A DNA stretch of 36,231 nucleotides from Gammaproteobacteria bacterium (GTDB lineage Bacteria; Pseudomonadota; Gammaproteobacteria; SZUA-152). Shown here in pieces: positions 2,974 to 36,231 of this stretch. The notes under the pieces were generated by a model. That model had not been told where the DNA came from, made no database searches, and saw only the letters and a list, made by a program, of their open reading frames with translations. The stretch's first letter is position 1, and the number at the start of each line of letters is the position of its first letter. The stretch is taken from positions 1 to 36,231 of the forward strand of contig JAJRWE010000037.1 of assembly GCA_024276955.1 (NCBI GenBank), in the 5' to 3' direction. Position numbers and translations under genes: made by a program.

Positions 2974-5199
2974 TTAGCGGCTTTTCGCCTGGCCCGGATG
3001 CAGCTGCGTGACATTGCCGACAGGCTGTTCCAGGGCCGGCAGGCGCACTACCACACGGGCGCCGGCGCGGGTGTTTTCGGCAAACAGATTGCCCATGTGT
3101 TCCTCGACGATACGCTTGACCACTGCCAGTCCCAAGCCGGTGCCGCGCGGCTTGGTGGTGGCGTAAGGCTCGAAGAGTTTGTCGAGCATGTCGTCGGGGA
3201 TGCCGTGACCATTGTCTTCGATGGCCAGGTCGACAAAGGTCTTCGCAGCCTCCTTGCGGCTGGTCAGGGTAATGCGAATTTGTGCATCGGCCTGCCCGGC
3301 AAGCGCGTCGATGGCATTGCGGATCAGGTTGTGCAGCAGTTGCCGCAAGCGGCCGGGGTCGGCCTCCACCGTGGGCAGGTTTTGTTGTTCTTCGAAGTGA
3401 AAGGAAACCTGGGTACCGTAGCCGCGATACAGCTCAAGCACTTCACGAATCAGCTCGCCCAAGGAGAGTGGACGTAACTGAATTTGGGGGGTCTTGGCGT
3501 ATTCTGAAAAGGCCTGCACCATTTCCTTCAGCGCCTGCACCTGCTGCACGATGGTGTGCGTGGAACGGTCGAGTATCTCGGCGTCCTTTGGGTCCATGCT
3601 ATCGAGATACTTGCGCCGCAGGCGCTCGGCGGAAAGCTGAATGGGGGTCAGAGGATTCTTGATTTCGTGCGCCAGTCGCCGCGCCACTGCCCCCCAAGCG
3701 GCATCGCGTTGGGCCTGCACCAGTTCTGTAACATCCTCCAACACTACCACGTAGCCGGCGGGGATGCCCTCCATGCCGGGTAGCCGGGTACCATGGCAGG
3801 TAATGATTTTGTGTCCGCTGCTGCCATATAGTGTGACCTCTTCGCGCCAGTCGGTTTCTGTTTCATTGAGATGAGGCAGTAGGGTCTGTACGAACTGGGC
3901 GACTTCTGGGTAATCTATTTCCAGTTTGGTAAGCTTGTGTCCGGCGCTGTAGTCAAGATTGATGCCGAGAATATGGCTGGCGGCGGCGTTTACGGCGCGT
4001 ATGGTGAGATCACGATCCAGGGTCATCACGCCCGATGACAGACGTCCCAGCACGGCGCGAAGATAGGCGCGTTCGCGGTCGGCCTGACGCTGGCTGCGAA
4101 TAACCTGATCCTGGGCCTCGGCGATGCGCTGGGTCATTTCACTGAATGACTGCACCAGCGAGCCTAGTTCGTCGCTGCTGGTGACGGGCAGTTTCTTGTG
4201 ATAGTTGCCAGCGGCCACGGCGCGTGTGCCGATGGCCAGAATGCGAATCGGTGAGACCAGGCGCTGGGCGAAGAAGAACGCCGCCCATACCGCCGACAGC
4301 AGGGTGACCAGTAGAATCAGAAACAGAGTGAAGGCAAAGGTCTGCTTGAGGGGTTCGCGCAGATACACCAGTTCCTTGTATTTGGTGTAGGCCGATTGCA
4401 CGTTCTCCGCCATTTGGCTGATGCGTTCGCTGACCGGATACAGGGCGATGAGGATTCTTGCCTTGCGGGCGGCGGCTGTCTGTTCAAGGGCGATGGCGAC
4501 GCGGGTGTGCAGGCCTTGATCACGGATCTGCGCAAGGCCGATGTAGAACCTGTTAGTCCTGACTTGTTGCAGCACGGCCTCATCGGGCAGGCTGGGGATA
4601 ATGGTGCCGGAGTCGGTACTGGAGGACGCGATCACCCGGCCATTGGATTGGGCAATCAGCAGTTCACTGGCAGTGGATTTTTCGCGCAATTCATTGAGCC
4701 GGAAAAGCAGCGAACTGTCGTCAGTCTGCTGCAGCTGCCGGCTAAGGCTGCGGGTTTCCTTGAGTTTTTCACGCATGCGCATGTCGAGTGCGGATTTGCT
4801 CAATTCCAGCGCCTCGGTCATGGCGCGGTCGATGCGCACATCAAACCAGCTATCAATACCTTTCTGCATGAAGCCTAACGAAAAATAGAAAACGATGGAG
4901 ACGGGTGTAACAGCCATGACGACAAAGATCAGCACCAGTCGAGCGGTGAGACGTGAGCCGGTCGCCGAACGGCGGTATTGGTGAATCAGACGCAGCAGGC
5001 TGACGCTGATCAGGCCGGTGAGCACGATCAGGCCGAGGATATTGATGACCACCAACACGATATGCAGGCGGCCGAACTGGGCGGAGTTTTCCGTGGCGGC
5101 GGAAAGTAGCCACAGCGAGCCCAGCATGAAGATGCCCATCAGCGCGACCGGGATGAAACTGGTCGATATGCGCCGCAGCCAGGTGATGAAGGCATTCAT
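2974..5199 (-). CDS. ntrY: NtrY-type membrane sensor histidine kinase
   Basis: Starting at ATG 5199 gives 741 residues. The N-terminus has three to four membrane segments (about 14-35, 45-70, 88-110) and another near 290-312 that flank an extracytoplasmic sensor region (about 111-288). These are followed by a HAMP domain (about 312-365), a PAS domain (about 375-495), a HisKA domain with phosphoacceptor H511 in RRLAHEIKNP, and a HATPase_c domain with N box NLIRNAID near 625, G1 DNGHGIP near 662 and GTGLGLAVV near 687. A longer frame beginning at 5247 exists, but ATG 5199 overlaps the preceding stop as TGATG, so translational coupling supports the shorter form. It phosphorylates NtrX, encoded immediately downstream. 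Confidence 0.93.
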   Translation of the reverse strand: MNAFITWLRRISTSFIPVALMGIFMLGSLWLLSAATENSAQFGRLHIVLVVINILGLIVLTGLISVSLLRLIHQYRRSATGSRLTARLVLIFVVMAVTPVSIVFYFSLGFMQKGIDSWFDVRIDRAMTEALELSKSALDMRMREKLKETRSLSRQLQQTDDSSLLFRLNELREKSTASELLIAQSNGRVIASSSTDSGTIIPSLPDEAVLQQVRTNRFYIGLAQIRDQGLHTRVAIALEQTAAARKARILIALYPVSERISQMAENVQSAYTKYKELVYLREPLKQTFAFTLFLILLVTLLSAVWAAFFFAQRLVSPIRILAIGTRAVAAGNYHKKLPVTSSDELGSLVQSFSEMTQRIAEAQDQVIRSQRQADRERAYLRAVLGRLSSGVMTLDRDLTIRAVNAAASHILGINLDYSAGHKLTKLEIDYPEVAQFVQTLLPHLNETETDWREEVTLYGSSGHKIITCHGTRLPGMEGIPAGYVVVLEDVTELVQAQRDAAWGAVARRLAHEIKNPLTPIQLSAERLRRKYLDSMDPKDAEILDRSTHTIVQQVQALKEMVQAFSEYAKTPQIQLRPLSLGELIREVLELYRGYGTQVSFHFEEQQNLPTVEADPGRLRQLLHNLIRNAIDALAGQADAQIRITLTSRKEAAKTFVDLAIEDNGHGIPDDMLDKLFEPYATTKPRGTGLGLAVVKRIVEEHMGNLFAENTRAGARVVVRLPALEQPVGNVTQLHPGQAKSR

Positions 5200-5807
5200 C
5201 AGTGCATCCCCAGATCCCAGCTGTACCAGCCGCTGGTCAGCCACCAATTGCGTGATAGGTAGGCACGCATACGCAGGGGAACCGGCAGGCTTTCAAAGTC
5301 CAGATAGGAGCGGATGCTGACCATATAGTGTTCATCGGGGTCGAGAAGCTTGGCATCGATGATGGGCAGGCCGCGGATATCACCGAGGGCGCGCAGTACG
5401 CTGGTTAAGGTTGAGTAGCTGGCTTCGTGTCCGCTGTTGAGGTTACGCAGCAGGTATTGCTCGGTGAGGGCAAAATACTGGAGGGTGGTGCGTTGTTCGA
5501 GGCTGGCGATGTTTGCATCCCACAGGTAACGGCGTGGCTGGCGGACATCGATATCCAGAGCAAAGGTCAGGGGAACACCGTTATCCAAGGCCTCCAGCAC
5601 CTTTTTCGGCAACGCGAAGGTGAGGAGTGCATCGAGGCGGTAGACGCCGTCTTTCAGGGTGGTCTTTGCACCCTGCACACTGAACGACTGCGCCGCCGCC
5701 AGCGGACTGGCGCAGATCAGCAGCGCGCACAGCCAGCTCAGCAGATGGCGGCCGTGCCGCCGGTGCCGGCGCGTCAGCTGCGGGCCGTGGCGCGTTTGTG
5801 TAAGCAT
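5199..5807 (-). CDS. DUF4390 exported protein
   Basis: This 202-residue protein begins with a basic, His/Arg-rich region followed by a hydrophobic stretch ending in PLAAAQ (about residues 22-40), a Sec signal peptide with an unusually long n-region. The rest (about 41-200) is a beta-rich domain that matches my memory of DUF4390, a family regularly encoded between rsmB and ntrY in gamma- and betaproteobacteria. Its function is unknown; the constant location suggests a link to NtrY, whose sensor loop would face the same periplasmic compartment, but that is inference. The gene overlaps rsmB by 34 bp, and its stop overlaps the ntrY start. The long n-region might mean that an alternative internal start is used. 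Confidence 0.8.
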   Translation of the reverse strand: MLTQTRHGPQLTRRHRRHGRHLLSWLCALLICASPLAAAQSFSVQGAKTTLKDGVYRLDALLTFALPKKVLEALDNGVPLTFALDIDVRQPRRYLWDANIASLEQRTTLQYFALTEQYLLRNLNSGHEASYSTLTSVLRALGDIRGLPIIDAKLLDPDEHYMVSIRSYLDFESLPVPLRMRAYLSRNWWLTSGWYSWDLGMH

Positions 5808-28539: not shown

Positions 28540-28860
28540 ATGAACGCTATAAAAAGCCCAAAAAAATACGTGGGAATTGACAATGACTTAAACGGTGGTA
28601 TGACTGATAGCGGTAAGATAATTCGCGATGCCTGGGTTTTTGAAATCATTCCTGAAACAGCAACTTGTGAAGGCTGGTTAGTCACCAGCATACAGTCACT
28701 CTGGGAAAAGACCAGTGCTGAGTGGGGGAAATATGGTTTCTTGGTCAGCGGCCTGCCGGAAGAGGTTCGACAACGTTTTGAGCGTATCCAAAACGATGCG
28801 ATGAAACGCGCTAAAATAGCGGGTTGGGATCCCGAAAAAGAGGTCGACGAGGACAGTTGA
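28540..28860 (+). CDS. Small uncharacterised protein (106 aa)
   Basis: Starting at ATG 28540, with TTGGAG 7 bp upstream, the product begins MNAIKSPKKYVGIDNDLNGG and contains GKIIRDAWVFEIIPETATCEGW, ending in an acidic EKEVDEDS tail. No signal peptide or membrane segment is seen; it is predicted to be cytoplasmic, mixed alpha/beta. I recall similar short proteins with the VGIDNDLNGGMT...GKIIRDAWVF pattern in other proteobacteria but know of no function. The frame upstream of the ATG runs into the MITE-like element, which excludes a longer gene. Base composition is more AT-rich than its neighbours, hinting at transfer. Confidence 0.75.
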   Translation: MNAIKSPKKYVGIDNDLNGGMTDSGKIIRDAWVFEIIPETATCEGWLVTSIQSLWEKTSAEWGKYGFLVSGLPEEVRQRFERIQNDAMKRAKIAGWDPEKEVDEDS

Positions 28861-29019: not shown

Positions 29020-29676
29020 TCAACCACCCCCACACCCGCCCCCACACCCGCCCCCGCCGGCACATCCAACACCGCTGTCACCGCCCCCGCAGCTGCTGCT
29101 CAATCCATGGTTGTCAGATAGGGATCGATACCGGCCTTCGATACCCTGATCAAGGGCATATTTGTAACCATCGAGAATCTGTAATTCTTCATCGATGACA
29201 AAAAGTAGTGGCAGCCGCGAAGGTGATCGGTAGTCGATACCCTCGTAGTCACATGACAATCGCCAACATCTCCCCAGCCCTTTGATCATGTCATCCGTGG
29301 ATTTCATTTCAGATGCCGGCGTATGGTGAAGGAAGCCACCCAGGCCGTGATCGCAGAACTCCTTGTACCGGCGTGTATGGAGGATGAATTCGTGCCAGAC
29401 AATATCCACCACTTGCGATGGCATGGAAACCATCTGTCCGTTTCGACGGTTGCAAATAATGAAATAGGTTTTGAGCGCGGAAATGGCACGCTGAACATCG
29501 TCGTTACTCAGGTGCGGGTATCTTTCGATCACCTTCTCCTGGATGGTTTCCGGGAAATCGTATACTTTGATGTATCCAGGGCCGCGATACCGAAAGTTCA
29601 TCCCCACGACGAGGAGGCGGCGTAAAATAATCGCCACTATTCCGCCGATAATATAGGGGCTAATGCCGTCCATCAT
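29020..29676 (-). CDS. Gly/Cys-tailed protein with WHxFILxTxxYxxFC motif
   Basis: The 218-residue protein has one N-terminal membrane segment (about 6-25) and a soluble domain with the pattern VVDIVWHEFILHTRRYKEFC followed by GGFLHHTP. This resembles the WH...Y..FC core of glycine-rich-domain (DUF1399/GRDP) proteins, though the match is from memory. The last 26 residues are almost only Gly, Ser and Cys (four Cys, including CAGGGGCGGGCGGG), a possible metal- or cluster-binding or cross-linking tail. Its start codon directly follows the stop of the beta-barrel gene, so the two are translationally linked. Function is unknown. Confidence 0.8.
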   Translation of the reverse strand: MMDGISPYIIGGIVAIILRRLLVVGMNFRYRGPGYIKVYDFPETIQEKVIERYPHLSNDDVQRAISALKTYFIICNRRNGQMVSMPSQVVDIVWHEFILHTRRYKEFCDHGLGGFLHHTPASEMKSTDDMIKGLGRCWRLSCDYEGIDYRSPSRLPLLFVIDEELQILDGYKYALDQGIEGRYRSLSDNHGLSSSCGGGDSGVGCAGGGGCGGGCGGG

Positions 29677-30267
29677 TCAGTCGAAATGATACGTAGCAGT
29701 GAAGTTGAAATGCTTGCCGCCGGCTTCACCATTGAGGCCGCCCAACGTCACGTCCGCAGTGGATATGCGGCCCAGAAAACCAATACTCCACGCATCCGAA
29801 AGCAGGGTGTTGATACCGGCTCCAAGCCAAAATCCATTGCCTGAATCACTATCGGAAGCCGTACCGGAATAGTAGCCTGTTACCTCAGCGGAAAGCTTCG
29901 CTGTCACCCTCATCAGGCCGGCCTCGATAAAAGGACGAATCCGATTCTCGGCCAGGTACTTTCTGACACCCAGGCCGATCTCAGTGGTGTTCCCCTTAAT
30001 TCTCAGGGTGTAACCGGGGCCGTATGCCGTTGCTGAACCCTCCGATGTCAAGTAGCTGGCAATCGCGGTGACAGGCCATCCCGGGCCCTGAAATTCGATG
30101 CTGAAGCCGGCTTCCTGTTGTGACTCAACCGGCCGCCAGTTGTCAGCCTCCAGGGACTTGTTGCCATACATGATAGTGAAGCCGCCAGCTGCGAAAGCCG
30201 GACTTGCAGATGCTGTCAGAAAAGCGCTCAACAGATAGTTTTTAAATCTCCGGTTATTCTTGTGCAT
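29677..30267 (-). CDS. Small outer-membrane beta-barrel protein
   Basis: The 196-residue product (ATG 30267, GGGAG 7 bp upstream; an ATG at 30273 is too close to that site) has a Sec signal peptide ending SPAFA|AGG near residue 27. Repeated amphipathic strands follow (GFTIMYGNKSL, GFSIEFQG, TEIGLGVRKYL, IRPFIEAGL, GFWLGAGINTL, SIGFLGRIS), and the C-terminus is HFNFTATYHFD, near the aromatic end signature of outer-membrane proteins. About eight strands are predicted, as in OmpW/OmpA-barrel-like proteins; I cannot assign a specific family. It heads a two-gene unit and has candidate BtsR-type repeats upstream. Confidence 0.8.
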   Translation of the reverse strand: MHKNNRRFKNYLLSAFLTASASPAFAAGGFTIMYGNKSLEADNWRPVESQQEAGFSIEFQGPGWPVTAIASYLTSEGSATAYGPGYTLRIKGNTTEIGLGVRKYLAENRIRPFIEAGLMRVTAKLSAEVTGYYSGTASDSDSGNGFWLGAGINTLLSDAWSIGFLGRISTADVTLGGLNGEAGGKHFNFTATYHFD

Positions 30268-30352
30268 ATCCATTCTCCCTCGTTAGCGGGACGTCGATCC
30301 CATTTGTCGTCAGGCTACTTATGAGCGGATCAGGGAAAAAAGGTAAATTTCT

Positions 30353-30401
30353 CGAGTGGTAGTACTGGTGTCTAAGTGGTCGATAGGGGCATGTGAGCGG
30401 T
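30353..30401 (-). promoter_or_regulatory. Candidate LytTR (BtsR-like) operator upstream of the barrel gene
   Basis: Read on the minus strand: ACCGCTCA (30401-30394), 13 bp, ACCACTTA (30380-30373), 12 bp, ACCACTCG (30360-30353). The first two are perfect matches to ACC(G/A)CT(C/T)A, the repeat I recall for E. coli BtsR/YehT with a 13-bp spacer, and the third matches 7 of 8. Orientation is towards the barrel gene at 30267. The divergent sensor gene begins at 30463. Confidence 0.6.
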
Positions 30402-30462
30402 TTTCCTTTTTTGCGCCGCTGTGCAATCCTCTTCAGCACGGGTGAGAAAAGGAGAACCCTCA

Positions 30463-32190
30463 GTGCAGGACATTTTATTCCTCGAGCACATCGCCCCGCT
30501 GTTGCAGCATGTGCTCGTGTTTCTTGGCATCGCCTATCTGTTTACCAAGACGCCCGTGTTTACCGCGCTGGTGAATAATTCACTGACCCTGCCGGACAAG
30601 GCCGTTATCTACCTGCTGTTCTCTGGCTTTTGCATTCTGGGTACGACTTTCAGCGAGCCATCTCTTCAGTCGGAGGACGCCATCGCCAATACGCGGGCCA
30701 TCGGCGCCGTGCTGGGTGGATTGCTGGGTGGGCCGCTGGTTGGCATTCTGGTGGGTATCACGGGAGGTGTGCACCGGGTGATCAGCATGTCTTCCATTGA
30801 TGACCCGGTGAATTTTATCGATACCGCCTGTGCCACGGCTACGGTATTTGAGGGAACGCTTGCTGGATTCGTGCATCATTATTTTTTCCGCAAAGGGAAA
30901 ATGAATGTCCTCTTTTCGCCACGGCTTGCCTTTACCGTGGCACTGATCGCCGGGTTTGGGCATGTGCTCATCATCCTGCTGTTTGGCGCGCTTGCCAGTG
31001 AGTTCACGATGGCCTGGAACATTGAGCAGGAACTCGCCTTGCCCATGTTGATCGCCAATCCCGCGGGCGTGGCCCTGATCATCTACATGATCCGTGAACA
31101 GAAGCGGGCCTGTGATGACCTCGGCAGCAGCGGCAAGGCATGGCAGATAGCGAACAAGACGGCGGGTATTGTCTACAGCCGGTTCAACCAGGAGGCGTGC
31201 CGGCAAATGGCCCAAATCATCCAGCAGGAAACCAATGTCGGTGCCGTCGCCATCACCAATCGGGAGGAGCTGCTGGCCTTTTCCGGTATCGGTGAGGATC
31301 ATCACCAACCGGGGTCACGCATTTCATCCGGGGATACCTTGCGCGCCATGGAGGAAAACAGGGTTATATTTATCGACGGAACCAGCCGTTCCTATCGCTG
31401 CGGGATAAAAAATGACTGTGAGCTGGGTTCGGCATTAGTAATCCCACTGAGAGATGATGCCGTCAATGAGGTCATTGGTGCCATCAAGCTTTATGAGCAG
31501 AGGAACAAACTGTTCCGCAACATCAATCGTAAGCTGGGCGAGGATATTGCCCACCTGTTGTCAGGGCGGATTCTGGCCGGGCGTTATGAATTGCAGCGTG
31601 AGCTGCGTATTCAGGATCAGTACCGGCTTCTCACGGCACAGGTCAACCCTCACTTTCTTTACAATGCGCTAACGACCATTGGCCACATTGCCGGTAATCA
31701 GCCTGGTCGGGCGAAGCGTCTGCTGCATCATTTATCAGATTTCTTTCGCAAAAATCTCGGCTCCTCGGCGGATACAAGCACCTTGAAACATGAACTCGAA
31801 CACGTGGAATCCTATCTCGAAATAGAAAAGGCCCGCTTCGAAGGGCGGTTGCACGTCACAGTCGATGTGCCGGAGCATTTGTATGAACAGACAGTGCCGG
31901 TTTTTACCTTGCAGCCCATCGTCGAGAATGCGATAAAGCATGGCACCAGTGAGTTGATCCATGATGGTCGTATCGGTATCCACTGTAGTGAGGATGCGCA
32001 AGGCTTTACCCTGATCGTGGAAGATAACGCCGGGCTGTACGATGCGAACCATGCAAAAGGTTTCGGGCTGCAAATTGATGAACGTATCAAGATACGCCAT
32101 GGCAGTGGATATGGTGTCGATATTCAGTGTGAGCCTGAGCAATGGACGAGAGTCAGCATACGTCTGCCCAAGGGAAAACAAGCCGCATGA
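30463..32190 (+). CDS. LytS/BtsS-type membrane sensor histidine kinase
   Basis: The 575-residue kinase from GTG 30463 (AAGGAG 8 bp upstream) has an N-terminal 5TMR-LYT membrane region (about 1-210, with GAVLGGLLGGPLVGILVGITGG), a GAF domain (about 230-375) and a His_kinase plus HATPase_c module. The phosphoacceptor is H397 in AQVNPHFLYNALTTI, and PIVENAIKHG is the N box. This is the layout of E. coli BtsS (YehU), a high-affinity pyruvate receptor. A frame upstream to ATG 30421 exists but lacks a ribosome-binding site. Its stop overlaps the response-regulator start as ATGA. The signal it senses here is unknown. Confidence 0.9.
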   Translation: MQDILFLEHIAPLLQHVLVFLGIAYLFTKTPVFTALVNNSLTLPDKAVIYLLFSGFCILGTTFSEPSLQSEDAIANTRAIGAVLGGLLGGPLVGILVGITGGVHRVISMSSIDDPVNFIDTACATATVFEGTLAGFVHHYFFRKGKMNVLFSPRLAFTVALIAGFGHVLIILLFGALASEFTMAWNIEQELALPMLIANPAGVALIIYMIREQKRACDDLGSSGKAWQIANKTAGIVYSRFNQEACRQMAQIIQQETNVGAVAITNREELLAFSGIGEDHHQPGSRISSGDTLRAMEENRVIFIDGTSRSYRCGIKNDCELGSALVIPLRDDAVNEVIGAIKLYEQRNKLFRNINRKLGEDIAHLLSGRILAGRYELQRELRIQDQYRLLTAQVNPHFLYNALTTIGHIAGNQPGRAKRLLHHLSDFFRKNLGSSADTSTLKHELEHVESYLEIEKARFEGRLHVTVDVPEHLYEQTVPVFTLQPIVENAIKHGTSELIHDGRIGIHCSEDAQGFTLIVEDNAGLYDANHAKGFGLQIDERIKIRHGSGYGVDIQCEPEQWTRVSIRLPKGKQAA

Positions 32191-32900
32191 TCAGAACCAT
32201 CATTGTCGACGACGAACCTCACGCCTGCGAGGATCTGAAAACAAAAATCGAATTGGATGACGCCTTTACCGTCATTGGAAAATGTGCCAATGCCTTTGAG
32301 GCGGTCAGGGACATCAATCGTGAACGACCCGATATCGTTTTTCTGGATATTAAAATGCCGAAAATTTCCGGCATTGAAATGCTTGCCATGCTGGACAGAG
32401 ATCACATGCCCCGCATTGTCTTTGTCACAGCCCACGGTGAATATGCCATCGAGGCCTTTGAAAGCAATGCCATCGATTTCCTGCTCAAGCCGGTAATGAG
32501 TGATCGCCTGGCCGTCACCCTGGCGCGGCTCAAGGAAGATCATCAGCCGCAGTCTGCCGTTGCCGAGGCCTTTCCCACCGACCTGCAATTCGTTCCCTGC
32601 TATCAAGGCGCCCAGTTCTATCTGGTGAATGCCAAGGAGATCATCCATGCCCACTCCGAGCCGACGACCGGCGTGCAACTGCTGACAACGAGCGGCAAGA
32701 CATTCCAGACCAGCGTTTCCCTCAAGGTTTTCGAGGACAACAGTCCCTTGCTGCGTTGCCATCGTCAGCACTTGATCAATCCCGAATACATAAAATATAT
32801 CGAGCGGCTGGAGAATGGCCTGGGCAGGATCCATACCTACGGCGATTACACAATTCCCGTTAGTCGGCGCTATATGGACGACTTCCCCTCTATCGGCTGA
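32187..32900 (+). CDS. LytTR-type response regulator (BtsR-like)
   Basis: The 237-residue protein has a receiver domain (acidic DDE at 8-10, phosphoacceptor D54 in VFLDIKMPKISG, VTAHGEYAIEAF, LLKPV) and a C-terminal LytTR DNA-binding domain (about 135-235: VNAKEIIHAHSE, FEDNSPLLRCHRQHLINPEYI). Length and order match E. coli BtsR/YehT (239 aa). Translation is coupled to the kinase by a 4-bp overlap. ACC-type repeats lie just downstream, before the transporter gene, and also upstream of the barrel gene, so these are its likely targets. Confidence 0.92.
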   Translation: MIRTIIVDDEPHACEDLKTKIELDDAFTVIGKCANAFEAVRDINRERPDIVFLDIKMPKISGIEMLAMLDRDHMPRIVFVTAHGEYAIEAFESNAIDFLLKPVMSDRLAVTLARLKEDHQPQSAVAEAFPTDLQFVPCYQGAQFYLVNAKEIIHAHSEPTTGVQLLTTSGKTFQTSVSLKVFEDNSPLLRCHRQHLINPEYIKYIERLENGLGRIHTYGDYTIPVSRRYMDDFPSIG

Positions 32901-32943
32901 CTGGCCAAGCCCCCTACCGCTATTTCACGGTGGCCTGTTCGGT

Positions 32944-32972
32944 ACCGTTTAGGCCATCATGCCCACCGCTCA
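32944..32972 (+). promoter_or_regulatory. Candidate LytTR (BtsR-like) operator of the transporter gene
   Basis: ACCGTTTA (32944-32951) and ACCGCTCA (32965-32972) are direct repeats with exactly 13 bp between them; the second is a perfect match to ACC(G/A)CT(C/T)A and the first matches 7 of 8. Weaker ACCGCTAT copies lie at 32916-32923 and 32974-32981. The site is about 118 bp upstream of ATG 33091. The region 32901-33090 has no other gene. Confidence 0.6.
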
Positions 32973-33090
32973 CACCGCTATATTTCCGTTTGCCATCTTT
33001 CGGCTGAACAGCCTGCCTTGTCCCGTTAGCCTGTCTGTCATCCGGCCGTTGTCAGCGCCGGACATTCATGGGAAAACGGGAGATAACGAG

Positions 33091-34325
33091 ATGATTCAGC
33101 GGACAATCCAGTTCCTGTCCACCCTGGGGCCAGGGCTGCTCTATGCCGGCGCGGCGGTGGGCGTGTCACATCTGGTCATGTCGACCCAGGCGGGAGCGAT
33201 GTATCAGTTCCTGTTTCTGTTATTGATCCCGCTGATTCATGTTGTCAAATATCCCTTCTTCAAATATGGCCCGCAATACACGGCCTTGACGGCGTACTTG
33301 TCACCAGCGCCATCGCCATTCACTTCCTGGGCCTGCAAATTCCGGCAGCGTACTTGCCGCATGTCCCCGCCATAGCGATTCTCGTTATCGCCGCAATCAT
33401 TTTGTTCATTGGCCAATACAGCGCCCTGGACAAGATGATGAAGGCCATCATTCTGGTGCTGACGCTGACCACTATCACCGCACTGCTCATGGTCTTGTTT
33501 AAGCAGCCTGCGGATGCGGCATTTCCGGTGAAACCAGCCTTCAACCTGTATGAATACGCTGATATTATTTTTCTGGCGGCCTTTCTTGGCTGGATGCCGG
33601 CACCCATGGATATCAGCGTCTGGCACTCGGTGTGGGCCGAGGAAGACGCTCGCAGCAAGGGGCAGCGTCCTTCCCTGCAACGTGTGATGCGGGACTTTCG
33701 GATCGGCTATTTTGGCACCGCCATCCTGGCGATGATTTTTTTATCATTGGGCGCCATGATCATGTTTGGCAATGGTGAGACGCCCTCGCAGAGCGGGGCC
33801 GTTTTCGCCGCTCAGTTAATGAGTATGTATACGGACTCGCTGGGTGAGTGGGCCTACCCCCTTATTGGCATTGCGGCCCTGGCGACCATGTTCAGCACCA
33901 CGCTGACCTGTCTGGATGCCTATCCACGAACCCTGGCAGCGTGCTATTTGATTTGGCGGCGCGACAGCGGCCGTCGGCCAGTGGCCGCTGAGCGGGTGAT
34001 GGCGCCAGGCCCCGCCGTGGATGACGGCCCACGGCATGTCTACCGGGTTATGCTGGTGATCGGTGTGATCGGCACCGTGACGATATTCTTTGTGGTCAGT
34101 AATATGGCTGGCGCCATGGGGCTGGTTGTCACCGTTGCCACCGTCGTCTCCTTTCTTTCCGCGCCGGTTCTCGCCGCCATCAATCACCGCGTGATGCAGG
34201 GTGAAACGATTGCCGTGGCCGACCGGCCGGGTGCCATAATGATCCTGTGGAGCCGGGTGGGCATTGCCACCATGGCGGTGTTCAGCCTGGCCTATCTCTG
34301 GCTCATGCTCATGCTGGCCGGCTGA
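33091..34325 (+). pseudogene. Nramp-related transporter, frame broken and probably missing one helix
   Basis: The first frame (ATG 33091, stop 33375) starts GPGLLYAGAAVGVSHLVMST and reaches FKYGPQYTALTA near 33294. The rest of the protein, from about LVTSAIAIHFLGLQIP (near 33300) through the helices to the stop at 34325, is in another frame. Together they give about 411 residues and ten hydrophobic helices. Nramp proteins have 11-12, and the expected loop and third helix after KYGPQYTA appear to be absent, which suggests a deletion plus frame change at about 33285-33305. The first-helix metal motif DPGN of classical Nramp is replaced by GVSHLV and the sixth-helix MPHN-type motif by MPAPMD, so the substrate may not be a divalent metal. 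A 9-bp direct repeat GCGTACTTG occurs at 33292 and 33348. Confidence 0.75.
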
Positions 34326-34485
34326 TACATGACAGAGTGTGAACTTCCGCCTGGAATTCTGTCGGTTTTGGCAATATTCTACTGTGTTTTTCCTTCATGT
34401 TCGCTACGATTACCAAGACCCGATAGACCCTTGGGCAAACAAAAGCCCATGCCGGATGTGTATTTTGACTAAGGAAGGCCACCCA

Positions 34486-36231
34486 ATGCTGCATGACCGT
34501 GTGACTCACCAGACACTGAAATCCATTTTGCTTCTGGGGGGACTGTTTGGCCTCCTGAGTGGCTGTACCAGTGGCGATGACTCAGGAGACAACCCGCCTG
34601 CCCCTCGCTTCACCCTTAGCGGCACAGTGAGCAGTGCTGCGGGCTCTATCGTTGACAGTGACGTCAATGACCCCTTCGCCCCCTACGCGGCCAATGATAC
34701 CCCTGCCCAGGCCCAGTCGATTCCTAATCCGGTGATGGTGGGCGGTTACGCGAATGTGGCCGGCACGGGCTGGCCCGGCCCTTTATTCTTTTCCGGTGAT
34801 CGCTCGGATTATTATCGCGTCAGCCTGGCTGCGGGCCAGACCATTACCCTCAATATTGCTGACTTTAGTACGGGTGACCTGGATCTGTATTTGTATTATG
34901 ACGATGGCGACATTGACCCGGAAAATCCGGACTTTGGGGCGAATGGTGTCGGACAAACAGAAAGCCTGACCATCGACGAAGCTGGGAAGTATGTCATTGA
35001 AGTGTACGCCTACTCCGATTATACCAACTACGCCTTGGTCGTTGGCCAAGGTGCTGCCTCAGCCGTAACCAGTAGTGCAACCGGCAGGTTGGTCTTGACC
35101 GATGACTTCGTGCCCGGCGACGTCGTTGTACGTTTTAAGGACACTGCGCTGGCATTAAGCACAAATCAGACTCTGACGGCCCGGGCGGCCAGTCTCGGCC
35201 TGCGCGCCAAGGCCGGCGCCAACGGCCGGGCCATGCTGCTGGAACTGGGAGACCCGCAAAGCCGCCAGGCAAGCTTCAAGGCCCTGGGTATCACATCGGC
35301 ACAAAAAGGCGGCCAAGCGAAACAATTCCGCTCAGCAGATCCTGATAAACAATTGAAGATGGATACCCTGCTGGTGATCAAGGCCCTGCGCAAACGCCAC
35401 GATGTGTTGTATGCGGAGCCAAACTATATCCGCCGCGCCAAGTTGACGCCCACGGATCAATATTACGACCTGCAATGGCACTATCCGCTTATCAATCTGC
35501 CCGCCGCCTGGGGTGTCTGGGATGCAAGCACCGGCAAGAGCAGTGTCATCGTGGCCGTGATCGACACTGGGGTTCTGCTTGACCATCCCGATCTGGCCGG
35601 GCAGTTTTCGGCCGATGGCGGTTATGATTTCATTCGGAACGACAGCATCTCTCAGGACGGCCAGCCAGGCATCGATCCCGACCCCAATGATCCCGGTGAC
35701 TCGGCCACCGGCGGCAGCTCCTTCCATGGCACCCACGTTGCCGGCACCATTGCTGCGGCGACCAGCTTTAGCGGCAGCAGCAGCGGCGTGGCAGGCGTGG
35801 CCCCGGGGGCGAAGATCATGCCGCTGCGCGTCCTGGGCACGGGTGGCGGCACCAGCTACGACATCAGCCAGGCGGTACGCTATGCCGCTGGCCTGTCCAA
35901 TGATTCCGGCATCGATCTCACCAATGCCAATAGGGCCGATGTGATCAATCTCAGCCTCGGCGGTGGCAGTTACTCCCAGGCGGAGCAGGAAACCTATACC
36001 AAGGTTCGCAACGCCGGCGTGATCATCGTTGCGGCTGCCGGCAATGAATCCACCAGCAGTCCCTCCTATCCTGCCGCCTATACCGGAGTGATCTCCGTCA
36101 GCGCAGTGGACATCAATAAACAACTGGCGCCCTATTCCAATTTCGGCACCAGCATCGATGTGGCCGCACCCGGTGGCGATGCCGGGCGGGATATCAACGG
36201 TGACGGGTATTCCGATGGCGTGCTCAGTACC
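34486..36231 (+). CDS. Lipoprotein subtilisin-like protease with PPC domain, C-terminally cut by the window
   Basis: The frame from ATG 34486 (AAGGAAGG 7 bp upstream) runs 582 codons to the edge without a stop. The signal peptide ends with a lipobox, LLSGC (C27), indicating a lipoprotein. A bacterial pre-peptidase (PPC) domain follows at about residues 63-185 (DYYRVSLAAGQTITLNI, DLDLYLY, GKYVIEVYAYS). After that come an I9-like segment ending VLYAEPNYI and the S8 domain with D360 in AVIDTGVLLDHPDL and H414 in FHGTHVAGT. The catalytic serine lies beyond the window. It differs from the first subtilase in anchoring and domain order, although both share the AEPNY pro-region motif. The PPC domain is N-terminal, whereas it more often follows the catalytic domain. 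Confidence 0.92.
   Translation, partial: MLHDRVTHQTLKSILLLGGLFGLLSGCTSGDDSGDNPPAPRFTLSGTVSSAAGSIVDSDVNDPFAPYAANDTPAQAQSIPNPVMVGGYANVAGTGWPGPLFFSGDRSDYYRVSLAAGQTITLNIADFSTGDLDLYLYYDDGDIDPENPDFGANGVGQTESLTIDEAGKYVIEVYAYSDYTNYALVVGQGAASAVTSSATGRLVLTDDFVPGDVVVRFKDTALALSTNQTLTARAASLGLRAKAGANGRAMLLELGDPQSRQASFKALGITSAQKGGQAKQFRSADPDKQLKMDTLLVIKALRKRHDVLYAEPNYIRRAKLTPTDQYYDLQWHYPLINLPAAWGVWDASTGKSSVIVAVIDTGVLLDHPDLAGQFSADGGYDFIRNDSISQDGQPGIDPDPNDPGDSATGGSSFHGTHVAGTIAAATSFSGSSSGVAGVAPGAKIMPLRVLGTGGGTSYDISQAVRYAAGLSNDSGIDLTNANRADVINLSLGGGSYSQAEQETYTKVRNAGVIIVAAAGNESTSSPSYPAAYTGVISVSAVDINKQLAPYSNFGTSIDVAAPGGDAGRDINGDGYSDGVLST

Follow-up and report, generated by a model that had tools for sequence, protein, structure and literature searches.

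Known LytS/LytTR systems and the locus analysed

BtsSR is the commonest LytS/LytTR system in the gammaproteobacteria (PMC5552118). Until now it has been characterised almost solely via its pyruvate transporters. In the kinase of the Escherichia coli system, BtsS/BtsR-btsT (YehU/YehT-yjiY), pyruvate binding requires all four pocket residues (R72, R99, C110 and S113), of which C110 and S113 are variable across LytS kinases (PMC10653868). The window analysed here, the whole 36,231-nucleotide stretch of contig JAJRWE010000037.1 (C196) from a gammaproteobacterial genome (GCA_024276955.1; 3.16 Mb, 86.5% complete, 251 contigs), carries a pair of this type between two promoter arrays, one ahead of an NRAMP-like transporter gene and the other ahead of a divergent operon for a small outer-membrane barrel and a Gly/Cys-tail protein. 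We consider it highly probable that the locus encodes a BtsS/BtsR-type sensing system of the pyruvate family whose local targets have been replaced and added to. The module is found in a group of uncultured gammaproteobacteria, and those of its bearers that have names are gammaproteobacterial metagenome-assembled genomes. The features on which the comparison turns are:

30463..32190, plus strand: BtsS-type LytS histidine kinase (Pfam 5TM-5TMR_LYT, GAF, His_kinase and HATPase domains; GTG start)
32187..32900, plus strand: BtsR-type LytTR response regulator (NCBIfam BtsR equivalog, 275 bits, cut-off 246)
30353..30401, minus strand: barrel-side (kinase-side) triple BtsR-type array, ACCGCTCA-N13-ACCACTTA-N12-ACCACTCG, 24/24 consensus positions
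32944..32992, plus strand: transporter-side triple BtsR-type array, ACCGTTTA-N13-ACCGCTCA-N12-TCCGTTTG, 23/24 consensus positions

The original prediction had described the LytS/LytTR pair as BtsSR-like, and kinase and regulator are as it described them. Judged by sequence, the pair at 30463-32900 belongs to the BtsS/BtsR type, because the kinase has the domains listed, shares 48% identity with E. coli BtsS and retains in the alignment the equivalents of R72, R99 and C110 plus H382, and because the regulator, 41% identical to E. coli BtsR, passes the equivalog cut-off. The kinase and regulator families, these residues and a triple array before the transporter gene are shared with the E. coli system; the window kinase differs from it in having Ala at the S113 equivalent, which leaves three of the four pocket residues, and a loop about 7 residues longer between R99 and C110. 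Pyruvate is likely, but not certain, to be the kinase ligand. Unlike btsSR, the window pair adjoins its putative targets, and the locus has in addition a divergent second array and the barrel/Gly-Cys operon. A further E. coli pair, YpdA/YpdB (PyrS/PyrR)-yhjX, is pyruvate-responsive and likewise combines LytS and LytTR proteins with a tandem-repeat site of similar spacing (PMC4847170), but its half-site, GGCATTTCAT, is unlike those of the window, whose regulator fits the BtsR model.

Triple arrays on both sides of the kinase/regulator pair

Direct repeats at both places, with the spacings originally proposed, were confirmed by pattern search. On the barrel side an exact pair, ACCGCTCA-N13-ACCACTTA, lies at 30373-30401 on the minus strand with the third half-site, ACCACTCG, behind it, and the array is 79 bp ahead of the barrel start and 61 bp ahead of the kinase start. 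On the transporter side, 98 bp ahead of the transporter start, the exact pair ACCGTTTA-N13-ACCGCTCA (32944-32972, plus strand) had been recognised; a third half-site, TCCGTTTG, ending at 32992, had been missed, so that both arrays are triple. Across the 3.16-Mb genome, ACCRYTYA-N13-ACCRYTYA is matched exactly only twice, at the two window sites, and the reversed control gave no match. The half-sites of both flanking promoters follow ACC(G/A)(C/T)T(C/T)(A/G), i.e. ACCRYTYR, as direct repeats with 12-13-bp spacers. The E. coli btsT promoter, used as positive control, likewise has three ACCRYTYR half-sites with 12-13-bp spacers, GCCGCTCA-N12-ACCGCTTA-N13-ACCACTCA, in a stretch that is the published YehT-site oligonucleotide (PMC4847170).

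The triple pattern was scanned, with its reverse as control, in 17 genomes: nine with a BtsS-type kinase and eight related genomes without one. It has 14 matches in the nine kinase-bearing genomes, 13 of them at the BtsSR locus or a remnant copy and the fourteenth in front of an outer-membrane-barrel-like gene of G015 (L090); there are none in the eight kinase-free genomes, and the reversed control matches twice in total over all 17. Conservation of the repeats in orthologous loci, for which the original prediction had proposed such a scan, is tied to the presence of the kinase. The arrays are kept at both flanks of the pair in relatives, which bears out the earlier claim of two adjacent targets on opposite strands, as does their match to the btsT array.

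Upstream sequence was usable for 77 transporter loci, and a similar association emerges among them: the transporter promoter has a box scoring at least 14/16 at 9/9 loci where a BtsR-type regulator is linked and at 5/68 where none is, counts that are not independent trials, since loci within one family are related by descent. Among these five is L114, a close relative truncated by the end of its contig. The array accompanies the kinase/regulator system in more distant genomes too (L112, L113, G099).

That the repeats are chance matches, or serve some other function, is extremely improbable. The looser two-half-site pattern, which in kinase-free genomes matches about as often as its reversed control, would fit such an origin, but the triple pattern is confined in the kinase-bearing genomes to the BtsSR locus and its remnants, and the arrays match the E. 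coli btsT site. We conclude that the window repeats are real and a chance origin unlikely; their reading as predicted regulator sites is well supported by comparison, short of demonstration. Some of the off-locus two-half-site matches were dismissed as chance: a pair at G015:C43 and G013:C82 sits within a coding gene, and the reversed control is similarly frequent in kinase-free genomes.

A divergent NRAMP-like transporter proposed to stand in for CstA/BtsT

33091..33375, plus strand: NRAMP-like transporter gene, 5' part (open reading frame 32959-33375; the frame stops early after a ~100-bp deletion near 33285-33300)
33354..34325, plus strand: NRAMP-like transporter gene, 3' part in a shifted frame (open reading frame; orthologues; NRAMP superfamily)

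The gene behind the plus-strand array was originally proposed as a transporter target. In relatives it is intact (430 amino acids, as at L105:9001-10290); in the window it does not form a single open frame, a point overlooked originally, and alignment with G001 and G003 shows it broken by the ~100-bp deletion and a frameshift. Either the gene has recently become a pseudogene or the assembly is wrong here. G005, of the same genus, has the 3' part only and no BtsS-type kinase; together with the split window gene, this makes the module seem to be decaying in this genus.

Several comparisons place the transporter family near NRAMP. The module orthologue scores 41.2 bits against NCBIfam Nramp_1, below the cut-off of 50, and a Nitrosomonas homologue 54.6 bits; a Bacteroidales homologue matches Pfam Nramp with 54.8 bits. 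A single-sequence PDB search with the transporter returned no match, and a profile PDB search matched only NRAT. The predicted model of the orthologue (predicted local distance difference test score 83.9) has DraNramp and EleNRMT as its best PDB matches, with the best TM-score, 0.75 normalised to the query, against DraNramp. The transporter is accordingly classed, from profile matches and model, as a divergent, remote member of the NRAMP superfamily with a predicted NRAMP/LeuT fold. It shares with MntH, NRMT and NRAT the fold and a remote sequence match, but the NRAMP ion-site signature DxxN...A/CxxM (PMC8806188), with DxxN expected in helix 1 and A/CxxM in helix 6, is absent from the family: these positions read GxxH...WxxA, the WxxA placed by alignment with NRAT, and GxxH is invariant over 50 sequences.

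These features bear on a metal-handling module, in which the kinase would sense a metal or metal-linked signal, the transporter would import a divalent cation and the Gly/Cys protein would be a metal chaperone. Proteins of the NRAMP superfamily do import divalent cations, and the Gly/Cys protein has potential metal ligands in its tail and in conserved His/Cys residues. We nevertheless think this quite improbable, given the replaced ion-site signature, the pyruvate-binding arginines and cysteine retained in the kinase, and the finding that another array-bearing gene in the group encodes an SDF-family dicarboxylate symporter.

A search for the CstA/BtsT family (PF02554) found no member in ten of the group's genomes, with a positive E. 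coli control. Because CstA/BtsT is absent and the transporter co-occurs with the system and its array, we infer that the NRAMP-like protein occupies the place of the usual BtsSR target, the window-group target being NRAMP-like, not CstA-like as in E. coli; a CstA/BtsT-family target is a trait of the known BtsSR targets, not of the sensor-regulator family. In the library searched, no relevant paper linked LytTR or LytS to Nramp.

The barrel/Gly-Cys operon and the role of the kinase-side array

29677..30273, minus strand: small outer-membrane beta-barrel protein, 198 amino acids, with signal peptide (OMP_b-brl, E=2.1e-5, 25.2 bits, below the 28.7 cut-off; orthologues)
29020..29676, minus strand: Gly/Cys-tail protein, 218 amino acids (open reading frame; homologues in relatives)

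The barrel matches small OMP_b-brl models only, under their cut-off. The Gly/Cys gene begins directly after the stop codon of the barrel gene, with the same gene order in G003, and the two genes are probably co-transcribed. The second protein consists of an N-terminal transmembrane segment, a conserved VDxxWHEFIL...FC...LHH domain and a C-terminal Gly/Cys-rich tail. By the positive-inside rule, the Arg/Lys-rich stretch that follows the transmembrane segment predicts an inner-membrane protein with a cytoplasmic domain. Searches of Pfam and NCBIfam gave no family at E<0.01. Plant-type GRDP-like proteins (PF07173) share the D-x-x-W-H sequence style and a Gly-rich tail, but the window protein is membrane-anchored with a Gly/Cys tail and has no PF07173 match; a related Gly/Cys-tail protein at L113 reaches 19.0 bits (E=0.0024), below the curated cut-off of 22.7. 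An AlphaFold model built from four sequences was set aside (predicted local distance difference test score 43.6). At L113:6585-7496 a protein with a Gly/Cys tail, (CGG)n, weakly GRDP-like, is encoded on the opposite strand between the kinase and regulator genes.

What lies behind the kinase-side array varies. In G001 it is a barrel remnant and a Gly/Cys gene, in G015 and G019 a Gly/Cys gene, and in G013 and a second G015 contig Gly/Cys remnants only, which argues that the array once faced a Gly/Cys gene there too. Both genes are lost or relocated in several relatives that retain kinase, regulator and transporter. The G011 barrel comes with a separate 24/24 array that is not next to the kinase, lending independent support to predicted array control of the barrel. 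Four unlinked Gly/Cys loci, which do not adjoin a kinase, have no array; the idea that Gly/Cys genes always carry one was rejected, and the case for Gly/Cys control rests on position. The original prediction had joined barrel, Gly/Cys protein and transporter in a trans-envelope uptake module; this lacks support, as the barrel is small (~198 amino acids), the Gly/Cys domain is predicted to be cytoplasmic, neither gene keeps its place throughout the relatives, and the window transporter is broken.

The kinase-side array might instead mainly autoregulate the kinase-regulator operon, with the barrel and Gly/Cys genes as bystanders that settled alongside, a role that the original prediction did not consider. 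In each of the nine kinase-bearing genomes examined it stands 57-113 bp ahead of the kinase start, and it persists even where no intact divergent gene remains (G099, G011, G018, G013), which makes it likely that it controls the pair itself in addition to the divergent genes; the unlinked Gly/Cys genes without arrays point the same way. As the main role of the array, however, autoregulation is somewhat unlikely: the array has the same orientation towards the divergent gene as the arrays towards btsT and the transporter, the G011 barrel has an array of its own, and the Gly/Cys remnants in G013 and the second G015 contig lie behind the array. It also counts against this role that E. coli btsS is not preceded by an array of this kind. 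The kinase genes of L112 and L113 likewise have none in their promoters.

A proposed rewired BtsSR-type regulon

Under the reading that we prefer, of a pyruvate-family system with replaced and enlarged targets, the kinase would bind an external small 2-oxoacid or monocarboxylate via the conserved Arg/Arg/Cys pocket and would phosphorylate the regulator. The regulator would then bind the arrays and activate the NRAMP-fold transporter, which lacks the metal-site signature and would take the enterobacterial place of BtsT/CstA, as well as the divergent barrel and Gly/Cys operon; the divergent array would probably also modulate the kinase's own promoter. With the transporter decayed or mis-assembled in the window genome, functional local output there may come from the barrel and Gly/Cys genes alone.

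Some observations weigh against this reading. The S113-to-Ala change and the lengthened loop beside the pocket could alter the kinase ligand, and the transporter gene is not intact in the window genome. L112 and L113 have no kinase-side array, leaving the transporter array alone common to all, and the unlinked Gly/Cys loci are without arrays.

What is new is a BtsSR-type system with an NRAMP-like transporter as putative replacement for the CstA-family target, a gained barrel/Gly-Cys output and probable self-control, which the comparison supports well but does not demonstrate. A 2-oxoacid such as pyruvate is our leading guess for the transporter substrate. The fuller proposal, that an NRAMP-fold family devoid of the metal site replaced BtsT/CstA as 2-oxoacid (pyruvate-like) importer under BtsSR, with the barrel and Gly/Cys protein new to the regulon, is possible though doubtful. 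The system would be a clean example of the rewiring of a nutrient-sensing regulon. With the same sensor type and promoter array attached to a different transporter family, the regulator gives a clue to the substrate, and the triple array provides a simple genome-wide finder for further targets (SDF symporter, other outer-membrane barrels, cupin/methyltransferase operon).

Further array-bearing genes and neighbours

The SDF-family dicarboxylate symporter of G011 (G011:C90, L088:3955-4003) has its own triple array, and in Methylomonas (L129, L132) an SDF symporter adjoins the transporter homologue; together these hint at organic-acid uptake as a common theme of the putative regulon. Arrays or near-arrays also precede a cupin/methyltransferase/Asn-synthetase-like operon (L111) and outer-membrane-barrel-like genes (L090, L094). 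In G019 (L094:2901-2948 and 3044-5411), array-like repeats precede the barrel-like gene, and behind that gene comes a second LytS-type kinase, which lacks the 5TM domain.

The operon, which may be a biosynthetic cluster, encodes a cupin, a double methyltransferase, an Asn-synthetase-like protein and a small protein, and lies behind or faces the transporter (L105:10324-14575 and L111:982-5147). Its small protein is Gly-rich-tailed in L105; the L111 operon has its own array.

Within the window, a small open reading frame at 28540-28860 is possibly an old neighbour of the transporter; in many genomes of Nitrosomonas (e.g. L122, L134) its homologues lie ~650 bp ahead of the transporter homologue. 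Behind the transporter, at 34483-36231, comes a subtilase (Peptidase_S8) that has a PPC domain, as is the case in G003 and G005.

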